Of a DNA stretch of 64,000 nucleotides, positions 20,342 to 64,000 are shown in pieces. The DNA is taken from assembly GCF_000152905.1 (NCBI RefSeq), contig NZ_AAMY01000013.1, positions 1 to 64,000 on the forward strand, in the 5' to 3' direction. Position numbers and translations under genes: made by a program. The stretch comes from Nitrobacter sp. Nb-311A (GTDB lineage: Bacteria > Pseudomonadota > Alphaproteobacteria > Rhizobiales > Xanthobacteraceae). The notes under the pieces are model-generated. The model was given only the letters and a program-made list of their open reading frames with translations, searched no databases and was not told the origin of the DNA. Each line of letters begins with the position of its first letter. The stretch's first letter is position 1.

Positions 20342-20365
20342 CGTTATGTTTATATTGTGATAACG
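20342..20365. promoter_or_regulatory. Mo-box-like palindrome upstream of the FecCD permease gene
   Basis: 24-bp palindrome CGTTATGT-N8-TGATAACG. The outer CGTTAT/ATAACG is perfectly symmetrical and is followed by AT, as in ModE operators. It ends 70 bases before the permease start. It is the weakest inner match of the five Mo-box-like sites in this window, but keeps the same total length and outer CG bases. Confidence 0.65.
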
Positions 20366-20434
20366 ATCGCTGCGGTACGTCGCGGCGGTCCCGCGAACTG
20401 TTCCGTCCTTCCGATCAGGGGAAGAGCAACACGC

Positions 20435-21436
20435 ATGGCGCGTCTCATGTTTATGCCCGTGTTACTGATCGGCGTGGTCCTGTTTGCCCTCACCATCGGC
20501 CGCTACCCGCTCGAGATTAGCGACATCATTGCGTTCTTTCAGGCCATGGCCGGGTTAAAGCCAATGACGCCGGAACGTTATGAACTGCTTCACAATATCA
20601 TCGTGGAAATCCGCTTGCCGCGGATTCTTGGCGCTGGGCTGGTTGGGGCCGCTCTTGCGTCATCCGGCGCGGCGTTTCAAGCGGTTTTTCGCAATCCGCT
20701 GGTCTCGCCAGGAATTCTCGGTGTTCTCGGCGGCGCCAGCTTTGGTGCGGCGCTGGGGATCTTGCTGTTCGGCAACTGGGCGTTGATCCAGCTTTCGGCG
20801 TTCGGTATGGGGCTGGTGGCGGTCGGCGTCGGACTTCTGATCGCCAATATGTTCGGTCATGCCTCGATGGTCATGCTCGTGCTTGGCGGCATGATTTCGG
20901 CCGCGCTGTTCACGTCAGCGGTGTCAATCGTGAAATACACCGCAGACCCCTACGAGCAATTACCGGCCATCGTGTACTGGCTCATGGGCAGTCTTGGCGG
21001 CGTGGATATGATGCAGATTCGCTGGGCGACGATTCCGATCGTCGGCGGGCTCATGGTGCTTGCGTTGTTTGGTCGTGCTCTCGATGCGCTGTCGATGGGC
21101 GACGACGAGGCGCGCGCGCTCGGCGTGCCGGCGCAGCAGGTGCGTTACGGTGTGATAGGCGCCGCCACGCTGGTCTCCGCTTTGTCGGTGTCACTCGCCG
21201 GCATGATCGGATGGGTCGGTCTCGTGGTGCCGCATGTGGTGCGTCTTGCGCTCGGACCAGGTAATGCGCGGCTGCTTCCGGCGAGTGCATTCTCCGGTGC
21301 GATTTTTCTGATCATCGCTGATTGTCTTTCGCGCAGCATCACCAGGTCCGAAATTCCGATCGGAATTCTCACCGAGCTTTTAGGGATTCCTGCCTTCATC
21401 ATCGTGTTGCGCCGGGCTCGGCAAGGCTGGACATGA
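20435..21436 (+). CDS. FecCD-family ABC transporter permease
   Basis: 333-residue inner-membrane permease of the B12/iron-siderophore (type II importer) family, with about nine to ten membrane spans. Family marks: RLPRILGAGLVGAALASSG near residue 68, FRNPLVSPGILGVLGGASFG near 95, and GMIGWVGLVVPHVVRL near 250, all standard for FecCD/BtuC. Start 20435 is chosen by the AGGGGAAG ribosome site; the frame is open 26 codons upstream. The stop overlaps the ATPase start by 4 bases. A Mo-box-like site lies upstream, which fits molybdate/tungstate importers of the MolBC type rather than iron. Confidence 0.92.
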   Translation: MARLMFMPVLLIGVVLFALTIGRYPLEISDIIAFFQAMAGLKPMTPERYELLHNIIVEIRLPRILGAGLVGAALASSGAAFQAVFRNPLVSPGILGVLGGASFGAALGILLFGNWALIQLSAFGMGLVAVGVGLLIANMFGHASMVMLVLGGMISAALFTSAVSIVKYTADPYEQLPAIVYWLMGSLGGVDMMQIRWATIPIVGGLMVLALFGRALDALSMGDDEARALGVPAQQVRYGVIGAATLVSALSVSLAGMIGWVGLVVPHVVRLALGPGNARLLPASAFSGAIFLIIADCLSRSITRSEIPIGILTELLGIPAFIIVLRRARQGWT

Positions 21437-22263
21437 CGGCAGCTGCGACCGCCACCGAATATCTCGAGGCACGCGCGGTCCATTTCCGGCGCGGCATGCG
21501 TGTTATTCTTGACGATATCACGATCCGTCTCCATTCCGGTGAGATCGTTGCGCTGCTAGGCGCCAACGGCGCCGGGAAAAGCACGCTATTTCGTATCATG
21601 CTTGGCTTTTTCAAACCCGAGAGAGGGGAAGTCCGGCTGAACGGCAAACCGCTTGCAGACTTTTCGCGCCGCGCCCTGGCGCAACGCATCGCCTATGTGC
21701 CGCAGGCACATGTCGCACCGTTTCCCTATAAGGTGCGTGACGTGGTGCTGCTCGGCCGTCTTGCCGAGACCGGCATCTTCCGCGCGCCGCAAGCCGCCGA
21801 TCGCCGGGCCGTGGATGAAGTGCTGGAGCGACTGGCAATCACACATCTCGCCGCGCGCCGCTATACCGAGATTTCAGGCGGCGAGCGGCAACTGACCCTG
21901 ATCGCCCGTGCGCTTGCGCAGGGCGCCAGCATTCTTGTCTTGGATGAGCCGATGACGGGACTCGACTATGGCTATCAGGTCCGGCTGTTGCAGCATTTGG
22001 TCGATCTGGCCGGCGGCGGCCGTACAGTTTTGTTGAGCACACACAATCCGGAACATGCGGTGCAGGCTGCGACGCGCATTGCCGTGTTGCGCGACGGCGT
22101 GATTATGGCGGATGGTCCACCAGAGCAAATTATCACGCCATCGCTCATTCGCGTGCTTTACGGCGTTGCGGTCTCGACCCTGACAAACATTGAGGGCCGG
22201 ATGGTGATCGTGCCGACAATGGAGCGAGTGTTGGATACGCGCCGTGAGCCAACTCGCCCATGA
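21433..22263 (+). CDS. ABC transporter ATP-binding protein (FecE/MolC-like)
   Basis: 276-residue ATPase for the preceding permease. Walker A GANGAGKST (about residues 40-48), signature ISGGERQ (about 148), Walker B ILVLDEPM (about 168) and the switch His in LLSTHNPEHA. The ATG overlaps the permease stop (ATGA). It ends against the convergent binding-protein gene; the stop codons of both genes are in the two arms of one hairpin at 22255-22278. Together with the permease and the binding protein it makes a complete type II importer. Confidence 0.92.
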   Translation: MTAAATATEYLEARAVHFRRGMRVILDDITIRLHSGEIVALLGANGAGKSTLFRIMLGFFKPERGEVRLNGKPLADFSRRALAQRIAYVPQAHVAPFPYKVRDVVLLGRLAETGIFRAPQAADRRAVDEVLERLAITHLAARRYTEISGGERQLTLIARALAQGASILVLDEPMTGLDYGYQVRLLQHLVDLAGGGRTVLLSTHNPEHAVQAATRIAVLRDGVIMADGPPEQIITPSLIRVLYGVAVSTLTNIEGRMVIVPTMERVLDTRREPTRP

Positions 22264-22278
22264 GTGTATTCATGGGCG
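22255..22278. terminator. Bidirectional hairpin spanning two stop codons
   Basis: Inverted repeat with nine-base arms (CGCCCATGA and TCATGGGCG) and loop GTGTAT. The left arm holds the TGA stop of the ATPase gene and the right arm holds the stop of the convergent binding-protein gene, which are just 6 bases apart. There is no clear U-run on either side, so termination would be weak or protein-dependent. Confidence 0.55.
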
Positions 22279-23301
22279 GCCATTCAGTATTTCCTCAACC
22301 TGCGGTTTTGTCAGCATTGTCTTGAAAAATGTCGCGTAGAACGCGACGACTTCATCCCGGATGTCCCAATCCTTGAACAGATCGGGGTGGATGAACTGCG
22401 CCGCCCACAGCACGGTCAGAGGCTCTTCGACGGTGCGGTTGCCCCACAGGTGCACGCCTGTCGGAATAGCGACGACGCGGCGATTGCGAATGGCCGAGAC
22501 GGTGCCGAGGCGCGGATCGGCATAGGCTTCGGCAACCTCGGCCGCGTTGCTGAGTATCATGACTTCCGGATCCCATGCCAGAAGCTGCTCACGAGAGAAG
22601 GTCAGCGCCTCGGTCAGGCGATCGCCGCCCGTGACGCTTCGGCCGCCGGCCTGAGCGATCCACCACTCGGCAATCAGGTGCGGTTGAGTCATGCGCTTGA
22701 GATTGGCATAGAGTACCCGCGGCCGTTGCGCCGACCGCTGTGCCAGCCGCGCGCTGATGTTGCCAAGCGTAACATCGAAGTAGCTGCAATAGGCTTCCGC
22801 CGCTTCGGTCCTGTCATAGATTTGGCCGAGCAAACGCATCACCGCTTTTACGTCCTCGGGCTGCCGCCATGCGAGAAATACCGCGGGTGTGTGGGCGCGA
22901 GCCACCAGATCGACGGTTTTCCGGTCCATCGTGAGAACGATATCCGGCTTCGTTTCGACGAGGCCCTCGACGAGCGGCGCGCCGCCGCCGCCCTGCAGCA
23001 CAGGGCGCCGGGCGATATCGGGATCGACCAGATACTGCATGCGCCAGCGTGGACCGGATAGGTTCGGTGGCAGACCGTTGACGAGCGATTTTGCTTCGCC
23101 AAGCGCGAACACGAAGCTGTTGAGAACCGGGACGGGACCAATGGTTGCCACGCGCGCTACACGATCCGCAATGATCACGCTACGACCAGCCATGTCCGTG
23201 ATCGTGCGGTCGGCCCACGCATGTGTCGCCCACGACATAAGCGTTACGACGCACGCGAAAAGTGTAATGACTCGCGGTTGAGCTATTTTGCGTTGAATCA
23301 A
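22270..23301 (-). CDS. Periplasmic binding protein of a FecBCD/MolABC-type importer
   Basis: About 343-residue secreted protein of the FecB/BtuF/TroA-like class. A signal peptide (VITLFACVVTLMSWATHAWA, cut before DRTITD) precedes a TITDMAGRSVIIADRVARVA start typical of iron-complex/cobalamin/molybdate type binding proteins; other marks are ETKPDIVLTM and HPDLF near the end. The start is taken as TTG at 23301, seven bases after AGGAGAAC; the long open frame upstream is rejected as unsupported. It is divergent from the TonB receptor, with a shared Mo-box-like site between them at 23392-23415, and convergent with its permease and ATPase genes. Confidence 0.88.
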   Translation of the reverse strand: MIQRKIAQPRVITLFACVVTLMSWATHAWADRTITDMAGRSVIIADRVARVATIGPVPVLNSFVFALGEAKSLVNGLPPNLSGPRWRMQYLVDPDIARRPVLQGGGGAPLVEGLVETKPDIVLTMDRKTVDLVARAHTPAVFLAWRQPEDVKAVMRLLGQIYDRTEAAEAYCSYFDVTLGNISARLAQRSAQRPRVLYANLKRMTQPHLIAEWWIAQAGGRSVTGGDRLTEALTFSREQLLAWDPEVMILSNAAEVAEAYADPRLGTVSAIRNRRVVAIPTGVHLWGNRTVEEPLTVLWAAQFIHPDLFKDWDIRDEVVAFYATFFKTMLTKPQVEEILNGRP

Positions 23302-23391
23302 ATTCAGTTCTCCTGATCGCAAGCGCGAAAATTGCGTTGCTTCTGCGTGAGAGAGTACCGCGATGCTTGACGGTACGGGTTTCATTCTATA

Positions 23392-23415
23392 CGTGATATC
23401 AGTCTGTATATAACG
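23392..23415. promoter_or_regulatory. Mo-box-like palindrome between binding protein and TonB receptor
   Basis: 24-bp element CGTGATAT-N8-ATATAACG in the divergent promoter region. One base in the left half departs from perfect symmetry; the right half is the exact ModE-type half-site. It lies 91 bases from the binding-protein start and 228 bases from the receptor start, so it could control both directions. Confidence 0.75.
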
Positions 23416-23642
23416 ATTTGAAGTATTCGCGTCACGATGCTTCGAACCGCTGCCGTTTTCTGATCGAAGCGCATGCGTCTGACATGCAGGAACGATCGAA
23501 AGCGATCCGCGTCGGATTTGAGAACCCGCGGATCGCATCGGCGACAGAAGACCGTGCCGGAGGGTACGGCGATTTTTCATGGACATCGCGAGCGAAGCGG
23601 CGCGCTGTGCGTCGTTGCGTGGAAAATATTGGGGGCTGGATT

Positions 23643-26000
23643 GTGAAGAGAATATTGTTCATCGGTGCTCTGCTCGGCGGCGAGTCATATGGCGCGTTAG
23701 CCATGGCGCAGGATTCAACAAATCTTCCGCCGGTGACTGTTACCAGCGACGGTCAACCGAGAAATGTGCGGCAGAATGGCGTAACAAATGCGCGAGGCCG
23801 GACCGCGCGACGTTCGCGGCAGGCATCGCAGCGAAATCAGGCGCCGGCTCCGCAGCAACTACAATCGGCCGGTGTGTTGGCGGCGCAAAACCAGGTTCTC
23901 AGCACCGGTCCCACGCTGCCCGGCGCCAGCAGCGTCTCGCCGCAAGGCATCGCTATTCTTGGCGGCCCGGCGCAGACAAGCTTCTATCAGGCGCTGACCA
24001 TGGTGCCGTCGGTGACGTATGGGAGCCCCGATCCGTACGGTCTCAGCCCGACCCGCAACATCAACATCCGTGGCAAGGGCGACTTCCATCTCTCGAGAAA
24101 CATCGAGGGAGTACCGCTGATGGGCATCGTCGGCGGCACAGATCTTTTTGATCTCGAGAACATCCGTCGGATCGACATTTACCGTGGCGCGGTGCCATCC
24201 GACCAGGGGCTGGGCATTTCAAATGCCACCGGCGTCATCAATCAACTCATCCTTGGTCCGCAAGATAAAGCAGGAATCACCGGCCGGCAGGCATTCGGTT
24301 CCTACGACTTCTACAAGACGTTCGTGCGTATCGATACGGGTCTGTTGAACGATGCCGGGACACAAGCCTTTATCTCCGGATCGAATATCGGCGCGGACAA
24401 GTGGACCGGCGCCGGTGACCAGAGACGCCAGAATGTAACGTTCGGGTTGAACCAGAATTTCGGCGACCGTGTCACCCTCAACGTCAACGCGGTCTACAAC
24501 AAATATAACGGGAACAACTTCCGCGCGCTGACGTATGCTCAGGCTTCGGATCTCAAAAACAACTATCGGTTTGACTACAACACGGTGCTGACCGGGGTCT
24601 CCGCTACTGACGTCAACTATTACAAGTTCAACCAGATCAGTTCCGAGGTGTTCGCGACCATCGCAAAACTGGACTATAATTTCGCCGAAGGACAGCATCT
24701 GTTGTTCAAACCCTACTACTGGAACAACAACACCACGAGATCCAACGCGGCTGGAAACAACGTCCAGATCTGGCGTCAGCAAAACGACAACGTCGGTAGC
24801 GTTTTCGAGTACACCGGTCAGTTTCCGTGGGGTACTGACGTTGTTGCCGGATACTGGTGGCAATCGATGAAACCGCCTCCGCCTCCGACGGATCAGCGGC
24901 GTTTCACCGTCAATGCAGACGGCGGGCTTGATTTCTCGCACTGGCAGAGCCTTGCGAAGATCGACAACTTTAGCGTCAACAGTCCATACTTCCAGATATC
25001 GCAGAAGTTCGGAGCAACCTTCCTCACCGGCGGCCTGCGTTATATGGTTCTCGGCGCACCGCAGATGTCATACTACAACACTGCGGGAATCCCCGACGGC
25101 ACTTATGATCAGGCGCTCGCATTGAACCCCGCCGTCTATCCTGATGCCGTTTTGTCGGCGCGCGACTACGTCGCCTGGCTTCCTAACGTCGCTATCCGTC
25201 ACGATCTGAACTCGGCGCTCAGCGTGAGCTTCAGCTATGGACGCAGATTCGGCCGTCCGGATTGGGGGCCGCAAGCAAGCAACTACATCAACAACCGTGC
25301 GGCTTTTCTCGCCAAGGGCTTCACGCTGCAAACGGTAGTCGACAAGGTGCGGGCGGAATTGGCTGATCACTTTGATGCCTCGCTTCGCTTCAGCCAGTAC
25401 GGGCTGACTGTGATTCCCACCCTGTTCTATGCAAAACATCAGAACAAGCAGGTCAAGATCATCGACCCATCGATTGGTCCGAACGTCGCTTATTTTCAGG
25501 GCACCGGTTCGAGCACTGAATACGGTTTTGAGCTTGTATCAAGCTACAGCTTCGACGATCGGTTCACGGTTTTCGGATCGGCCACACTGGCGTCTGAAAC
25601 CTTCGATGCCGATACGCCGACCTTAGGCGGCGGCGCCTTGCTGGCGACGAAGGGAAAACAGATCCAAAACACGCCGCAAGTCATGCTGAATAGCGGCATA
25701 ACCTATCAGGCAGATGGTCTGGCCATCACGCCGATCGTCCGCTACATTGGCCCACGTTTCGGTGATGCCGCCAACCTTCAGTGCGTGCCCGGATACGCCG
25801 TAGCCGATGTGACGGTATCTTATAATCTCGGCTCCCTCATTAACATCGAATCGCTGACAGCCAGTCTCTCGATTCAGAACATTTTCGATCGCCAGTATAT
25901 CGCGCAGATATCTCCCAGCGACATCGACCTGAGTTCGGGTGGAACCTACTACCCTGGCGCTCCGCGAACGGTCATCGGATCGCTATCGGCGAAGTTTTGA
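23643..26000 (+). CDS. TonB-dependent outer membrane receptor
   Basis: 785-residue receptor. Start GTG 23643 (VKRILFIGALLGG) is chosen because it gives a signal peptide ending at ALAMAQ and follows GGGGGCTGG; the open frame reaches 75 codons upstream. The mature N-terminus has a likely TonB box (NLPPVTVTS). The plug domain shows NINIRGKGDFHLSRNIEGVP and LFDLENIRRIDIYRGAVP. The barrel ends in the usual aromatic residue (SLSAKF). No signalling extension is present, so control is not through an ECF sigma factor. Its ligand is inferred from context: with the adjacent FecBCD-like importer and Mo-box-like operator, a metal-chelate of molybdenum or a similar oxyanion is possible. Confidence 0.9.
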   Translation: MKRILFIGALLGGESYGALAMAQDSTNLPPVTVTSDGQPRNVRQNGVTNARGRTARRSRQASQRNQAPAPQQLQSAGVLAAQNQVLSTGPTLPGASSVSPQGIAILGGPAQTSFYQALTMVPSVTYGSPDPYGLSPTRNINIRGKGDFHLSRNIEGVPLMGIVGGTDLFDLENIRRIDIYRGAVPSDQGLGISNATGVINQLILGPQDKAGITGRQAFGSYDFYKTFVRIDTGLLNDAGTQAFISGSNIGADKWTGAGDQRRQNVTFGLNQNFGDRVTLNVNAVYNKYNGNNFRALTYAQASDLKNNYRFDYNTVLTGVSATDVNYYKFNQISSEVFATIAKLDYNFAEGQHLLFKPYYWNNNTTRSNAAGNNVQIWRQQNDNVGSVFEYTGQFPWGTDVVAGYWWQSMKPPPPPTDQRRFTVNADGGLDFSHWQSLAKIDNFSVNSPYFQISQKFGATFLTGGLRYMVLGAPQMSYYNTAGIPDGTYDQALALNPAVYPDAVLSARDYVAWLPNVAIRHDLNSALSVSFSYGRRFGRPDWGPQASNYINNRAAFLAKGFTLQTVVDKVRAELADHFDASLRFSQYGLTVIPTLFYAKHQNKQVKIIDPSIGPNVAYFQGTGSSTEYGFELVSSYSFDDRFTVFGSATLASETFDADTPTLGGGALLATKGKQIQNTPQVMLNSGITYQADGLAITPIVRYIGPRFGDAANLQCVPGYAVADVTVSYNLGSLINIESLTASLSIQNIFDRQYIAQISPSDIDLSSGGTYYPGAPRTVIGSLSAKF

Positions 26001-26012
26001 CAGTATGAAACA

Positions 26013-26038
26013 GCGCGCCGCGGGAGTGTGCGGCGCGC
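26013..26038. terminator. GC-rich hairpin between convergent genes
   Basis: Perfect inverted repeat with nine-base arms (GCGCGCCGC / GCGGCGCGC) and an eight-base loop, 12 bases after the TonB receptor stop and before the end of the convergent flavin monooxygenase gene. No U-run, but the position suggests a bidirectional transcription barrier. Confidence 0.6.
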
Positions 26039-26059
26039 CACTCTTGACCCGTTATCGGA

Positions 26060-27142
26060 TCAGGCAACCGCCAGCGTCTTTTCGAGATTTGGCCGCAGCA
26101 CGTTCCCCATCAGGTCAAGGGAGCGTTCGAGCAGTGGAAGCGGCAAGAAGCCGAAGAATGCGGACAATGCGTTGAGGTAAGTCACGCCGAGTTCATCGTG
26201 CAGCGTCATGAACTTCTCCGCGCAAGTTTCGGGTGATCCCGCAATCACCATGTCGCGATAAAAGTTTTCCGGCTCCAGGCCCGCTTCGTCGATAACGCCT
26301 TCGCGCTTGAACAGACCGAAGCCCTTCAGCCGCGTGGTCAACTTCTCGATTGTCGGCCACAACTCCTTGCGTGCTGACGCATCCGATTCGCTGACATAGA
26401 CAAAGCGTCCGAACGGCACTTTTGCGGGATCACCGCCGGCGTCGACATATGCGCGCATCAGCCGGCGCTGGTTTGGCATGCTGATGATGCCGTGACAGAT
26501 GATCTTGTGACCGTTCTTCGTTGCCCACGCGGCGGTCTCGTTGGTGTTGGTGCCGACATAGATCGGCGGGTGTGGCGACTGGATCGGCTTCGGTTCGATC
26601 GAGTGAGCGGTATCGCCGAATGGGATCTTGCCGGCCGCCCAGGCGCGGGGCAGGAATGTCAGCATATCCTTGAAATGATCAGCGGTGCCTTCCGGATCGA
26701 CGCCGTAGGCATTGAGATAACGGGGGTTGTTGCCGCGGGAAATGCCGACGTCGACGCGCCCATCGGATAGAACGTCCAGTGTCGCGATTTCCTCGGCAAG
26801 ACGGATCGGGTTGTGCAGCGCCGCCAGCAATACAGAAAAGCCGACGCGCAGACGCCTGGTGCGCGCCAGAATGGCGGACGCCAGAATCAGAGGTGAGTGG
26901 CATCGCCGGCCCTCAACTTCCACGATGCTGCCCTGGAAGTGTTCCTCATTGAGCCAGATCCCGGTAAAGCCCAGCGCTTCGACTTTCTCGACCAAATCGA
27001 GGATTTGAGAGGTCGAAATCGATTCGAGGCCGCCGCCGCAGCCAGACAAGCCGAGCTTGAAGCATCGTGCTGCCTCGCCCGTGCCGGGCACTTGACGTCC
27101 GATTCCCGGATCCATGGTTGACGCGTATACGCTATTGGTCAT
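26060..27142 (-). CDS. LLM-class flavin-dependent monooxygenase
   Basis: About 360-residue luciferase-like (bacterial luciferase alpha-type) flavin-dependent oxidoreductase with TIM-barrel marks: LGFTGIWLNEEHFQG, RLRVGFSVLLAALHNPIRLAEE, TLDVLSDGRVDVGISRGNNP and PHPPIYVGTNTNETAAWA. The start at 27142 (MTNSVYAS) gives the family N-terminus; the extra 40 codons upstream would be encoded by the control region. A Mo-box-like palindrome ends 63 bases upstream. Its place inside the putative molybdenum regulon suggests a role in metal-chelate processing or as a Mo-independent substitute enzyme; the substrate cannot be told from sequence. Confidence 0.88.
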   Translation of the reverse strand: MTNSVYASTMDPGIGRQVPGTGEAARCFKLGLSGCGGGLESISTSQILDLVEKVEALGFTGIWLNEEHFQGSIVEVEGRRCHSPLILASAILARTRRLRVGFSVLLAALHNPIRLAEEIATLDVLSDGRVDVGISRGNNPRYLNAYGVDPEGTADHFKDMLTFLPRAWAAGKIPFGDTAHSIEPKPIQSPHPPIYVGTNTNETAAWATKNGHKIICHGIISMPNQRRLMRAYVDAGGDPAKVPFGRFVYVSESDASARKELWPTIEKLTTRLKGFGLFKREGVIDEAGLEPENFYRDMVIAGSPETCAEKFMTLHDELGVTYLNALSAFFGFLPLPLLERSLDLMGNVLRPNLEKTLAVA

Positions 27143-27204
27143 CAGAAATGTCTCGTATGCGAAATCATGCGCGGAAAACGAGTGTCGCCGCCATTGATAT
27201 ATAT

Positions 27205-27228
27205 TGCTATATATTGATGTATATAGCG
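27205..27228. promoter_or_regulatory. Mo-box-like palindrome upstream of the flavin monooxygenase
   Basis: 24-bp element TGCTATAT-N8-ATATAGCG: the seven-base half-sites GCTATAT and ATATAGC are perfectly symmetrical. It is preceded by another TATATAT run at 27198-27204. It lies 63-86 bases upstream of the monooxygenase start on the minus strand. Confidence 0.75.
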
Positions 27229-27273
27229 TACGCTGAATCAGCGGCCGCAGGCCAAAGACCAAGTTACCGCGCG

Positions 27274-27534
27274 TCAGTAGCGATGGAAAATTTCAAGTTT
27301 GTGCCTGATCGAAAAATCGTCGAGGCGCTGACCTTGAGTAGGAAACTGCCGCTCATCCCAATCAATCCGCCACTCGAGATGTTTCTCATCGAAATAGGCT
27401 TCGGGAAACGCTTGTTGAAGCAGCTCGGCCATTTCTCCGTCTCGAGGCAAAACGAACGCATGAGATGGCGCTTTTGCGAACTTATGTGCGTCCTTGGCGT
27501 GATGCATCCTGGCCTCCAACTCTGTGAATTTCAT
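27274..27534 (-). CDS. Small protein of unknown function, paralogue of the next gene
   Basis: 86-residue soluble protein from MKFTELEARMHHAKD (start 27534; the frame is open 33 codons further up without support). No family is recognised. It clearly resembles the protein encoded at 27653-27931: both have HA-(3)-P-(2)-GE-(1)-AE, then Q-(1)-AFP-(1)-A-(2)-D, then EWR-(2)-W, and a late RL-(2)-F, about 20 identities over 51 positions aligned by eye. The two genes look like one operon (118 bases apart) headed by the Mo-box-like site at 27969, and the operon is followed by the Mo-box-headed monooxygenase gene on the same strand. Confidence 0.7.
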   Translation of the reverse strand: MKFTELEARMHHAKDAHKFAKAPSHAFVLPRDGEMAELLQQAFPEAYFDEKHLEWRIDWDERQFPTQGQRLDDFSIRHKLEIFHRY

Positions 27535-27652
27535 AGTCACGTCGTCGCGTCTGCGGTTGCGACTTATGCTGACGCCACGGTTGTGCGATACGATACTGCG
27601 ATTATGACAGATGCAGCGGTGAAGCATCAGCACTTGTCAACGTGGGAGAAAG

Positions 27653-27931
27653 CTACGCCTCTCTCCGAAAAAAAGCTTCCAGTCGTGCGTTGGATTCGGC
27701 GTAGGTTCCCTTCTTCCAGGCCATGCGCCACTCACCAGCCTCGTCATCATAGCTGGCCGATGGAAATGCGAGTTGGAAATGCTCCGCCAACTCTCCGTTG
27801 GGTGGCATGTCAATGGCGTGAAGCTCACACATTTTCGTAAGCGTAACTTGAAGCGGCTCTGAATCTTTCATTTCCACATCCGTCTCAACATATCGATTGA
27901 TATCGTCGCGATAGGGTAGCGTTTGAGGCAT
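27653..27931 (-). CDS. Small protein of unknown function, Mo-box-headed
   Basis: 92-residue acidic, soluble protein (MPQTLPYRDDINRYVETD, then MCELHAIDMPPNGELAEHF and EWRMAWKKGTYAESNARLEA). No family is recognised and there is no signal peptide. It is a tandem paralogue of the 27274-27534 product. A 24-bp Mo-box-like palindrome ends 38 bases upstream of the start, a position fitting repression. Its setting suggests a role in metal handling or a binding/chaperone role, but nothing in the sequence shows a function. Confidence 0.75.
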   Translation of the reverse strand: MPQTLPYRDDINRYVETDVEMKDSEPLQVTLTKMCELHAIDMPPNGELAEHFQLAFPSASYDDEAGEWRMAWKKGTYAESNARLEAFFRREA

Positions 27932-27968
27932 GTAAGCCGGCGACCGCCAGTCCTTGGCTGCTGCAATA

Positions 27969-27992
27969 CGTTATAGTCTATTAGATATAGCG
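27969..27992. promoter_or_regulatory. Mo-box-like palindrome upstream of the paralogous small genes
   Basis: 24-bp element CGTTATAG-N8-ATATAGCG. Outer CG bases and TAT cores are symmetrical; the spacing equals that of the other Mo-box-like sites in the window. It ends 38 bases upstream of the 27931 start. Confidence 0.75.
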
Positions 27993-55337: not shown

Positions 55338-55748
55338 TCACCGAGTCTTGGCGTCCCTGTCCCGTTCCGCGCTTTTTTTCGGGTGCCGGATGTCGTTTCG
55401 TAGCGCCTCGAGCTCCTTGTGGACCGCGCTGGCGGCATCGCGTTCTATCTTGCGGTAACGAGCCACGAGGGAAACCCCGAACGGGGTCAAAACCGCGCCG
55501 CCGCCGTTCTTGCCGCCGGTCTGCCGCGCGACCGCTGCCTGCCGGCAGATGCGGTTTATTTCATCGACAAGATCCCACGCGCGCTTATAGGACATGTCCA
55601 TGGCACGTCCGGCGGCCGAAATCGAGCCGCAAGTCTGTATGCTCTCGAGCAGTTGAATTTTTCCCGGCCCGATGCGGCCCTTGGGATCGAGATCGATACG
55701 TAGACTCAGCGAGGGCACTGATCTGTTGGATGAAGCCTGCATTCTCAT
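55338..55748 (-). CDS. ModE-type molybdenum-responsive HTH regulator (DNA-binding domain only)
   Basis: About 136 residues with the N-terminal DNA-binding domain of ModE: LLESIQTCGSISAAGRAMDMSYKRAWDLVDEIN, then VARQTGGKNGGGAVLTPFG. This strongly recalls E. coli ModE (GSISQAAK...SYKSAWDAINEMN...ATGGKGGGGAVLT). The C-terminal di-mop/TOBE molybdate-binding half is absent; the protein ends in a charged tail (IRHPKKSAERDRDAKTR). Such short proteins exist in many alphaproteobacteria. It may sense metal through another protein, or act constitutively. Five Mo-box-like operators lie in this window. Start 55748 is the best ATG; 55769 is an alternative. Confidence 0.88.
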   Translation of the reverse strand: MRMQASSNRSVPSLSLRIDLDPKGRIGPGKIQLLESIQTCGSISAAGRAMDMSYKRAWDLVDEINRICRQAAVARQTGGKNGGGAVLTPFGVSLVARYRKIERDAASAVHKELEALRNDIRHPKKSAERDRDAKTR

Positions 55749-55811
55749 GCTCGGTATTCCACGATCCAAGGCATATGGGAGACGGGACTATACATCATTC
55801 GATAATGAACG

Positions 55812-63190: not shown

Positions 63191-63361
63191 TCGCGCGCTG
63201 CGCTATCCGCGCGCTTTGATGTGTGCGGGTCGATACCGCGCCATTCTTTAAAAGCGGCTTTGCCACGCCCCATAGCTGAAATCCGGTGCAAGAGTCCCTC
63301 GACTCAATTCGTTGTATATGTGTCAATATGTCGCTTTGTCTCTCCCGTTAGTCTCCATTAG

Positions 63362-63385
63362 CGATATATGAGCATATATATAACG
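63362..63385. promoter_or_regulatory. Mo-box-like palindrome upstream of the second TonB receptor
   Basis: 24-bp element CGATATAT-N8-ATATAACG; one base in the left half departs from symmetry. It ends 19 bases before the receptor ATG, overlapping the likely promoter or ribosome site region, a position suited to repression. A weaker relative (CGTTGTAT-N8-ATATGTCG) lies at 63310-63333 with identical spacing. Confidence 0.72.
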
Positions 63386-63404
63386 AAATCTCTTGGGGGA
63401 GATT

Positions 63405-64000
63405 ATGATACTGGCAAGGGGGCTTTCGGGCAGGGGTGCGCTGCTGTCGTCGGTCGCGATTGTTGCGATGACGGTCGGCGCAGACGCGCAAGATCGGGAC
63501 AAGGATCGGGGCGAAGTTTATCAACTCGGCGAGATTTATGTTTCGGGCGGAGGACGCGGCGGTAGCGGGGGTGGAGGCGTCGGTGGTTCAACTGTGAACC
63601 GCGAGCAAATGTGGACCTTCGAAAAGCAGACGCTCGATCAGGCGGTGAATCTCGTGCCGGGCGTGAGCAGCACGCAGTCGTCCGCTGGCCAGCGTAACGA
63701 GACCGACATTTTCGTACGCGGCTTTGGCCGCTGGCAGGTTCCGTTGATGATCGACGGCGTGCGCGTCTATCTCCCAGCCGACAACCGGCTCGATTTCAGC
63801 CGTTTTCTCACCGGCGATATCGCCGAAATCCAGATTCAGAAGGGTTATGCTTCGGTGCTCGACGGGCCGGGCGGGATGGGTGGGGCCATCAACCTGGTGT
63901 CGCTAAAGCCAGTCAAGCCGTTCGAGTCTGAACTCCGCGGCGGCGCGACGTTCGACAATCGCGGAGCATTCCAGGGTTGGAACAGCTACGCGAGGATCGG
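63405..64000 (+). CDS. TonB-dependent receptor, partial at window edge
   Basis: First 198 residues of a second TonB-dependent receptor; it runs off the window. Signal peptide: GALLSSVAIVAMTVGADAQ. Putative TonB box EVYQLGEIYVSG, a Gly-rich stretch, then a plug domain with EKQTLDQAVNLVPGVSSTQS, NETDIFVRGFGRWQVPLMIDGVRVYLP and IAEIQIQKGYASVLDGPGGMGGAINLVSL. The plug shares the IRG/VRGF-type features of ferric- or metal-chelate receptors. Start ATG 63405 follows GGGGGAGATT, 19 bases after a Mo-box-like site, making it a likely member of the same regulon as the 20-28 kb genes. Confidence 0.88.
   Translation, partial: MILARGLSGRGALLSSVAIVAMTVGADAQDRDKDRGEVYQLGEIYVSGGGRGGSGGGGVGGSTVNREQMWTFEKQTLDQAVNLVPGVSSTQSSAGQRNETDIFVRGFGRWQVPLMIDGVRVYLPADNRLDFSRFLTGDIAEIQIQKGYASVLDGPGGMGGAINLVSLKPVKPFESELRGGATFDNRGAFQGWNSYARI

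Follow-up and report, generated by a model that had tools for sequence, protein, structure and literature searches.

The first 64,000 nucleotides of contig NZ_AAMY01000013.1 of Nitrobacter sp. Nb-311A, referred to here as the window, contain a compact group of predicted uptake genes associated with palindromes of the form CGnTATAT-N8-ATATAnCG. These palindromes are termed Mo-boxes (molybdenum boxes), and mismatches are counted against the 14 specified positions of the pattern. The initial annotation had placed four of them at 20342, 23392, 27205, and 27969; all four were found there, with 3, 1, 1, and 1 mismatches, respectively, and the gene order described around them was reproduced. The weak box (20342..20365) lies ~70 bp upstream of the predicted start (ATG 20436) of a FecCD-type permease gene (20436..21436, + strand; Pfam FecCD, 271 bits), which is followed by the gene for its partner, an ATP-binding cassette (ABC) ATPase (21433..22263, + strand; Pfam ABC_tran, 113.7 bits). 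The box at 23392..23415 separates two divergent genes: that of a periplasmic binding protein (22270..23304, - strand; Pfam Peripla_BP_2, 44 bits), with a likely start near 23304 in an open frame that reaches 23586, and that of a TonB-dependent receptor, TonB1 (23643..26000, + strand), with a likely GTG start at 23643. TonB1 has both a plug (28.2 bits) and a beta-barrel domain (80.6 bits) in Pfam, and a signal peptide and TonB-box-like N-terminus can be read by eye. The third box (27205..27228) lies ~60 bp upstream of a gene for a flavin monooxygenase of the luciferase-like monooxygenase (LLM) class (26060..27142, - strand; likely start near 27142; Pfam Bac_luciferase, 158.9 bits). The 25 best NCBIfam matches listed for this enzyme are other LLM subfamilies, each below its own cut-off, such that there is no specific family match. 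The fourth box (27969..27992) lies ~37 bp upstream of smB (27653..27931, - strand), a small gene with orthologues in N. winogradskyi NBRC 14297 and a further genome of the genus (G061). Sequence comparison identifies the neighboring smA (27274..27633, - strand, given as the longest open frame) as a paralogue of smB, with 40% identity over 50 amino acids.

Two further boxes that the initial annotation had not listed lie near the end of the window. These form a tandem pair, 52 bp apart, upstream of another TonB-dependent receptor gene, TonB3 (63393..64000 within the window, + strand; locus L018), the open frame of which begins at 63393, has a likely ATG start at 63405, and extends to contig position 65552. 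The distal member (63310..63333) has 2 mismatches, and the pair aligns in six genomes; the proximal member (63362..63385) has none, and is the best and only perfect site of the window. In total, 7 matches with at most 3 mismatches were observed in the window as compared to 0.76 expected from shuffles. Four sites (23392, 27205, 27969, and 63362) have at most 1 mismatch, a level that no site reached in 60 first-order Markov simulations.

The sites were also scored, on the better strand, against the 22 specified positions of the E. coli ModE consensus operator, ATCGCTATATANNNNNNTATATAACGAT, as printed in the available text of PMC2700814. Sites 27205 and 63362 score 18, site 23392 scores 17, sites 27969 and 63310 score 16, and site 20342 scores 14; in simulated windows the best one-strand score averaged 14.2 and reached at most 16. 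The consensus score by itself is therefore not enough for 20342, nor, to some extent, for 27969 and 63310. What makes site 20342 credible is only that four Nitrobacter genomes share its arms but differ in the spacer and flanks. The arms of the TonB3 pair are likewise conserved, in six genomes, with differing spacer and flanks.

The TonB1 locus is rare, being found in 4 of 149 genomes of the family (E up to 1e-30) and 3 of 397 of the order (E up to 1e-100), with the Nb-311A genome counted in both. The nearest named relatives of TonB1 are in N. winogradskyi NBRC 14297 (79%), Nitrobacter sp. 62-13 (72%), Afipia sp. 64-13 (70%, with the match in two pieces), and two Hyphomicrobium metagenome-assembled genomes (58% and 55%). 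These genomes, together with Nb-311A, G061, G456, and G320, make up the nine in which TonB1 was found. The initial annotation had named recurrence of the palindromes upstream of orthologues as a test of its proposal, and every one of the nine has a box upstream of TonB1 with no more than 3 mismatches (1 mismatch in Nb-311A, G061, NBRC 14297, and G456; 3 in 62-13 and G320; 2 in Afipia; 0 and 1 in the Hyphomicrobium genomes). Loci were mapped by tblastn; the queries used for the binding protein and the monooxygenase were their longest open frames and exceed the predicted genes in length. TonB1, the binding protein, and the monooxygenase occur together in 9/9 genomes, with the monooxygenase gene adjoining that of either TonB1 or the binding protein. 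In three distant relatives, the two Hyphomicrobium genomes and G320 (loci L034, L035, and L203), these genes are joined by those of the permease and ATPase in a single collinear run preceded by one box. In G456, TonB1, the binding protein, and the monooxygenase are collinear behind the box and lie beside another FecCD importer. In L034, nirB and a molybdopterin-enzyme gene are found upstream of the run; the latter, of the NasC/formate-dehydrogenase type and under the cut-off for both families, ends ~3 kb before TonB1.

Comparison with solved structures suggests what the importer may carry. In a PDB search, the best match to the permease is HI1471 (MolB, a molybdate permease; 2nq2_A) at 196.6 bits, with the next at 152.4 bits. 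The same preference is found in a second boxed permease of the genome (C35:16245), which matches HI1471 at 258.3 bits as compared to 161.2 bits for the next, and has a 2-mismatch box ~310 bp upstream. As a control, the third FecCD gene detected in this genome, with no listed box nearby, matches heme permeases best (178.9 and 148.6 bits) and HI1471 third (138.0 bits). By sequence, then, the window permease resembles MolB more closely than heme, iron, or B12 permeases. For the ATPase, HI1470 of 2nq2 is among the PDB matches but is not the best. The binding protein is of the metal-chelate class.

The probable binder of the boxes, as judged from its sequence, is a single-domain ModE-like regulator encoded within the window (55338..55769, - strand; protein 55341-55769). 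This protein has the winged-helix DNA-binding domain of ModE (TIGR00637, 90.7 bits, slightly below the cut-off of 98.5). Its best solved match is 2ijl_A (112.4 bits), a single-domain ModE of 135 amino acids designated "Molybdenum-binding transcriptional repressor", from Agrobacterium. The protein encoded in the window also aligns with E. coli ModE (59.9 bits) over the conserved DNA-binding region, where it retains the stretch around SYK-AWD...TGGK-GGGAVLT. The protein ends soon after this part and has no TOBE domain, and so cannot sense molybdate in the E. coli way. Short ModE proteins may follow cofactor status.

The distribution of boxes across genomes links them to ModE and, in some cases, to modA. 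With up to 2 mismatches allowed, the Nb-311A genome (4.1 Mb, 44 contigs) contains 18 sites, and the reversed pattern gives 7; with up to 1 allowed, the seven genomes of the genus combined contain 46 sites, and the reversed pattern gives 4. At this stricter level, 69 genomes of the family contain at least one site, out of 149 with Nb-311A counted in. Proximity was assessed for 75 listed sites in 29 genomes of other genera, counting the ModE-like matches of at least 60 bits and the modB matches listed for these genomes. Nineteen sites, spread over 16 of the 29 genomes, have a ModE-like gene no more than 5 kb away (0.18 expected), and four have modB at that distance or less (0.16 expected). In genomes G074 and G096, one-mismatch boxes lie 90-100 bp upstream of the modA match. 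The match to the printed consensus and the clustering beside ModE-like genes bear out the earlier identification of the palindromes as ModE-type boxes, which, at the level of sequence, mark one regulon as defined by its operators. The proposal that the block itself constitutes this regulon holds only in part, as further boxed TonB receptors, a second ModE, and other genes lie outside it.

Several of these outlying members are TonB receptors. TonB3 is found in 16 of 149 family genomes (E up to 1e-80), in 11 of which it is preceded by a box with no more than 1 mismatch. One copy (L166; G104:C1:690343-692397) has a perfect Mo-box upstream and a single in-frame TAG. At C44:54484, a box lies upstream of TonB2, a receptor of the siderophore class (254.6 bits, cut-off 223.5), the gene of which overlaps that of a ModA-like binding protein, ModA2 (235.9 bits, below the cut-off of 288), with ExbB encoded divergently. 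The TonB2-ModA2 pair occurs in five Nitrobacter genomes, with a box of at most 1 mismatch in four; in the fifth genome, the match is confined to the C-terminal part of TonB2. At the second MolB-like permease of N. winogradskyi NBRC 14297, a 3-mismatch site is shared with TonB4, a TonB receptor encoded divergently (244.2 bits, cut-off 223.5). The canonical ModABC is a separate locus, on contig C11, and was therefore rejected as the identity of the window system. An initial idea that ModABC is absent, drawn from the missing TOBE domain, was wrong: ModC here is short and lacks this domain.

Together, the operators, their recurrence before orthologues, their linkage to ModE and modA, the linkage among the genes, and the closeness of the permease to MolB point to ModE-controlled, TonB-driven uptake of a molybdenum species across the outer membrane. 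This is the most likely reading, and we consider it reasonably probable; within it, we infer repression, the response to molybdenum, the substrate, and the role of the monooxygenase. When cellular molybdenum, or molybdenum cofactor, is low, the single-domain ModE repressor would leave the operators, allowing TonB1, the binding protein, and the MolB-like permease and ATPase to be made. TonB1 would then draw a molybdenum complex into the periplasm, where the binding protein would pass it to the permease of a MolBCA-type importer; the complex is most likely an organic chelate. In the cytoplasm, the LLM flavin monooxygenase would probably attack the organic ligand, freeing the metal.

The fuller form of this proposal is a molybdophore pathway under single-domain ModE control, in which TonB1 imports a molybdenum chelate, the MolBCA-type importer carries the whole chelate inward, and a dedicated monooxygenase breaks the ligand down by oxidation, setting the metal free. 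As a part of the same pathway, the parallel ModE-boxed receptors TonB1, TonB2 (with its ModA-like protein), TonB3, and, in N. winogradskyi, TonB4 might give nitrite oxidizers access to different molybdenum compounds. This extension is tentative, and clearly less probable than outer-membrane molybdenum uptake as such; the organic-chelate cargo and the ligand-breaking monooxygenase are guesses prompted by the strict gene linkage.

A number of observations weigh against outer-membrane uptake of molybdenum under ModE control. The flanks of the 23392 box are conserved between Nitrobacter species too, such that there the box shows no conservation beyond its surroundings. No site with at most 3 mismatches lies within ~1.5 kb at 28 of the 30 top-scoring modB loci of the family, and modABC lacks a good box in 7/7 Nitrobacter genomes, two of which have a 3-mismatch site ~130 bp upstream. 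No TOBE domain was found in the Nb-311A genome; a control search found TOBE in 12 of 14 genomes. The PDB matches to TonB1 are metallophore receptors (CntO, FoxA, and the pyochelin receptors), at a weak 31 bits and in the C-terminal part only, and MolA (HI_1472, 3psa; E 1.4e-8) is only the fourth of 11 PDB matches to the binding protein. As compared to the ModA of the same genome, ModA2 retains one serine motif and has lost the second, which suggests that its ligand may differ from plain molybdate. Upstream of TonB3, 5 of the 16 genomes have no box with at most 3 mismatches. These five nevertheless each have a ModE-like gene within 8 kb, and one of them, G089, supports the uptake proposal, as it encodes a TonB3-like receptor, a MolB-like permease, and a ModE with two TOBE domains within ~11 kb; the MolB-like importer sits between TonB3 and ModE and matches HI1471 at 222.8 bits, with the next at 176.9 bits. 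Finally, the surroundings of the nonribosomal peptide synthetase (NRPS) genes (C36 and C9) and of the IucA/IucC genes (C43) yielded no box within 2 mismatches and a single imperfect match with 3, and chelator biosynthesis within the regulon was rejected on this basis.

The principal rival explanation retains the ModE operators and proposes that the system imports an organic compound, which the flavin monooxygenase would oxidize without molybdenum when molybdoenzymes fail. This explanation is favored by the monooxygenase, which accompanies TonB1 in 9/9 genomes, and aldehyde dehydrogenases behind boxes in other genera could similarly replace molybdenum-containing aldehyde oxidoreductases. A permease closest to MolB and a binding protein of the metal-chelate class argue against such a cargo. 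In addition, boxed TonB2 is paired with a ModA-like protein, TonB3 is often near a ModE-like gene, and no such monooxygenase is encoded beside TonB2 or TonB3 in the loci searched. Molybdenum sparing of this kind is judged unlikely, though it is the strongest of the alternatives. Another possibility would be that the locus is controlled by ModE and imports iron or another metal, the uptake of which is raised when molybdenum metabolism changes. The resemblance of TonB1 to CntO, FoxA, and the pyochelin receptors favors this, as do the siderophore-receptor score of TonB2 and the presence of NRPS and IucA/IucC genes in the genome. So does the A. vinelandii precedent, in which TonB/ABC operons are on only without molybdenum and vanadium (PMC9542535, available text). 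The MolB-like permeases and the lack of a good box at the siderophore clusters argue against it, making this explanation improbable.

Two further explanations concern the palindromes themselves. A different metal regulator that shares the A+T-rich palindromic form might bind them, given that the ModE-like proteins of the genome lack a sensor domain and that a palindrome alone does not name its binder. Against this stand the match to the printed ModE consensus, the concentration of sites near ModE genes and some modA promoters in many genomes, and the E. coli ModE stretch retained by the regulator described above; such a regulator is very unlikely. Chance occurrence in a region with some A+T-rich stretches is favored by site 20342, which taken alone scores at chance level on the ModE consensus. 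As an explanation for the palindromes it was rejected and carries negligible probability, since 0/60 simulations gave even one site with at most 1 mismatch and the arms persist upstream of the permease and TonB3 while spacers and flanks differ.

Accounts of molybdate uptake in Gram-negative bacteria usually deal with the inner membrane alone and treat the outer membrane as passive, crossed through pores. Among characterized systems, the Mo-box regulons of E. coli ModE and of Rhodobacter capsulatus (MopA/MopB; PMC6925177, available text) resemble the Nitrobacter system in operator form, in the ModE-type winged-helix domain, and in having transport genes as targets. They differ in that the Nitrobacter targets are TonB receptors and MolB-like importers rather than its own modABC, and the Nitrobacter regulator lacks the C-terminal TOBE/Mop molybdate-binding domains of full-length ModE. 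MolBC-A of H. influenzae (HI1470-1472), a type II importer of low affinity for molybdate, provides the closest solved permease and the same class of binding protein, and likewise coexists with ModABC. The available text of PMC4031551 describes molybdenum-dependent repression of molB by an unknown factor and names no outer-membrane receptor for this system; in Nitrobacter, the importer is accompanied by a TonB receptor and a flavin monooxygenase, and the set is marked by Mo-boxes.

The nearest printed case found is that of the A. vinelandii VnfA1 class B operons, which combine TonB siderophore receptors with ABC components under control tied to molybdenum. According to the available text of PMC9542535, VnfA1 switches on these operons only without molybdenum and vanadium. 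The vnfA1 promoter itself carries a ModE site, which ties their control indirectly to ModE. This organism differs in being a nitrogen fixer, and its operons are activated directly by VnfA1/sigma-54, with no boxes at the operons themselves. No report of ModE-controlled TonB uptake was found in a literature search covering titles and opening abstracts, with most subscription journals outside its coverage, and nothing relevant joined Nitrobacter to molybdenum. The parts are of known kinds; their combination appears to be new as far as this search reached.

If the uptake proposal is correct, molybdenum would be acquired actively across the outer membrane, as iron is. In Nitrobacter, this would be relevant to nitrite oxidation, the key enzyme of which needs molybdenum. 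The Mo-box would also serve as a tag by which orphan TonB receptors of several genera could be given substrates. It further provides a testable guess for the role of an orphan flavin monooxygenase: the NTA/EDTA-type (nitrilotriacetate/ethylenediaminetetraacetate) flavin monooxygenases, which destroy metal chelators, are LLM class enzymes, and it is this class, with no specific family match, that the Nitrobacter enzyme has in common with them.

Further boxes lie near other genes. On contig C42, five boxes (0, 0, 2, 2, and 3 mismatches) lie within 1.3 kb (C42:89477-90771; L016:7478-8772) near a second single-domain ModE-like gene that is 89% identical to the first. A gene for an alginate-export-type porin is adjacent to this cluster, with a box 146 bp upstream, and open frames of 56 and 87 codons begin 14 and 1 bp downstream of the two perfect boxes. 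Elsewhere on C42, a DUF2478 protein is encoded directly behind a one-mismatch box (C42:19896; L017:6897-7520). A second DUF2478 protein (L176) and lookalikes identified by eye (L151, L181, and L182) are found near boxes or MolB-like importers in other genomes, a recurrence suggesting that DUF2478 may belong to molybdenum homeostasis. Aldehyde dehydrogenase genes follow Mo-boxes in other genera (L138, L139, and L153, with Pfam scores of 301, 517, and 608 bits, and L140 by eye). These are possible molybdenum-free replacements of molybdenum aldehyde oxidases and suggest that control by the boxes is not limited to transport genes.

Downstream of TonB3, outside the window, are genes for a 213-amino-acid protein and then an MbnH/MauG-like diheme protein (273.7 bits, below the cut-off of 362.85). 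The former, like smA and smB, has no family match in NCBIfam or Pfam. The NRPS condensation domains and IucA/IucC siderophore genes are located at C36:95324-111130 (on the contig of the window), C9:997-6822, and C43:202113-207555. No clear target lies behind the one-mismatch boxes at C44:99785 and C38:45891, which may be due to chance. A two-mismatch box at C8:32089 (L022:6090) lies 32 bp upstream of a gene for a double cold-shock-domain protein. In other loci, TrmO_N-domain proteins (L180:10527-11030 and L202:12402-12905) are encoded beside FecCD-type importers near TonB genes, and N-termini in L138 and L181 appear similar to them by eye.

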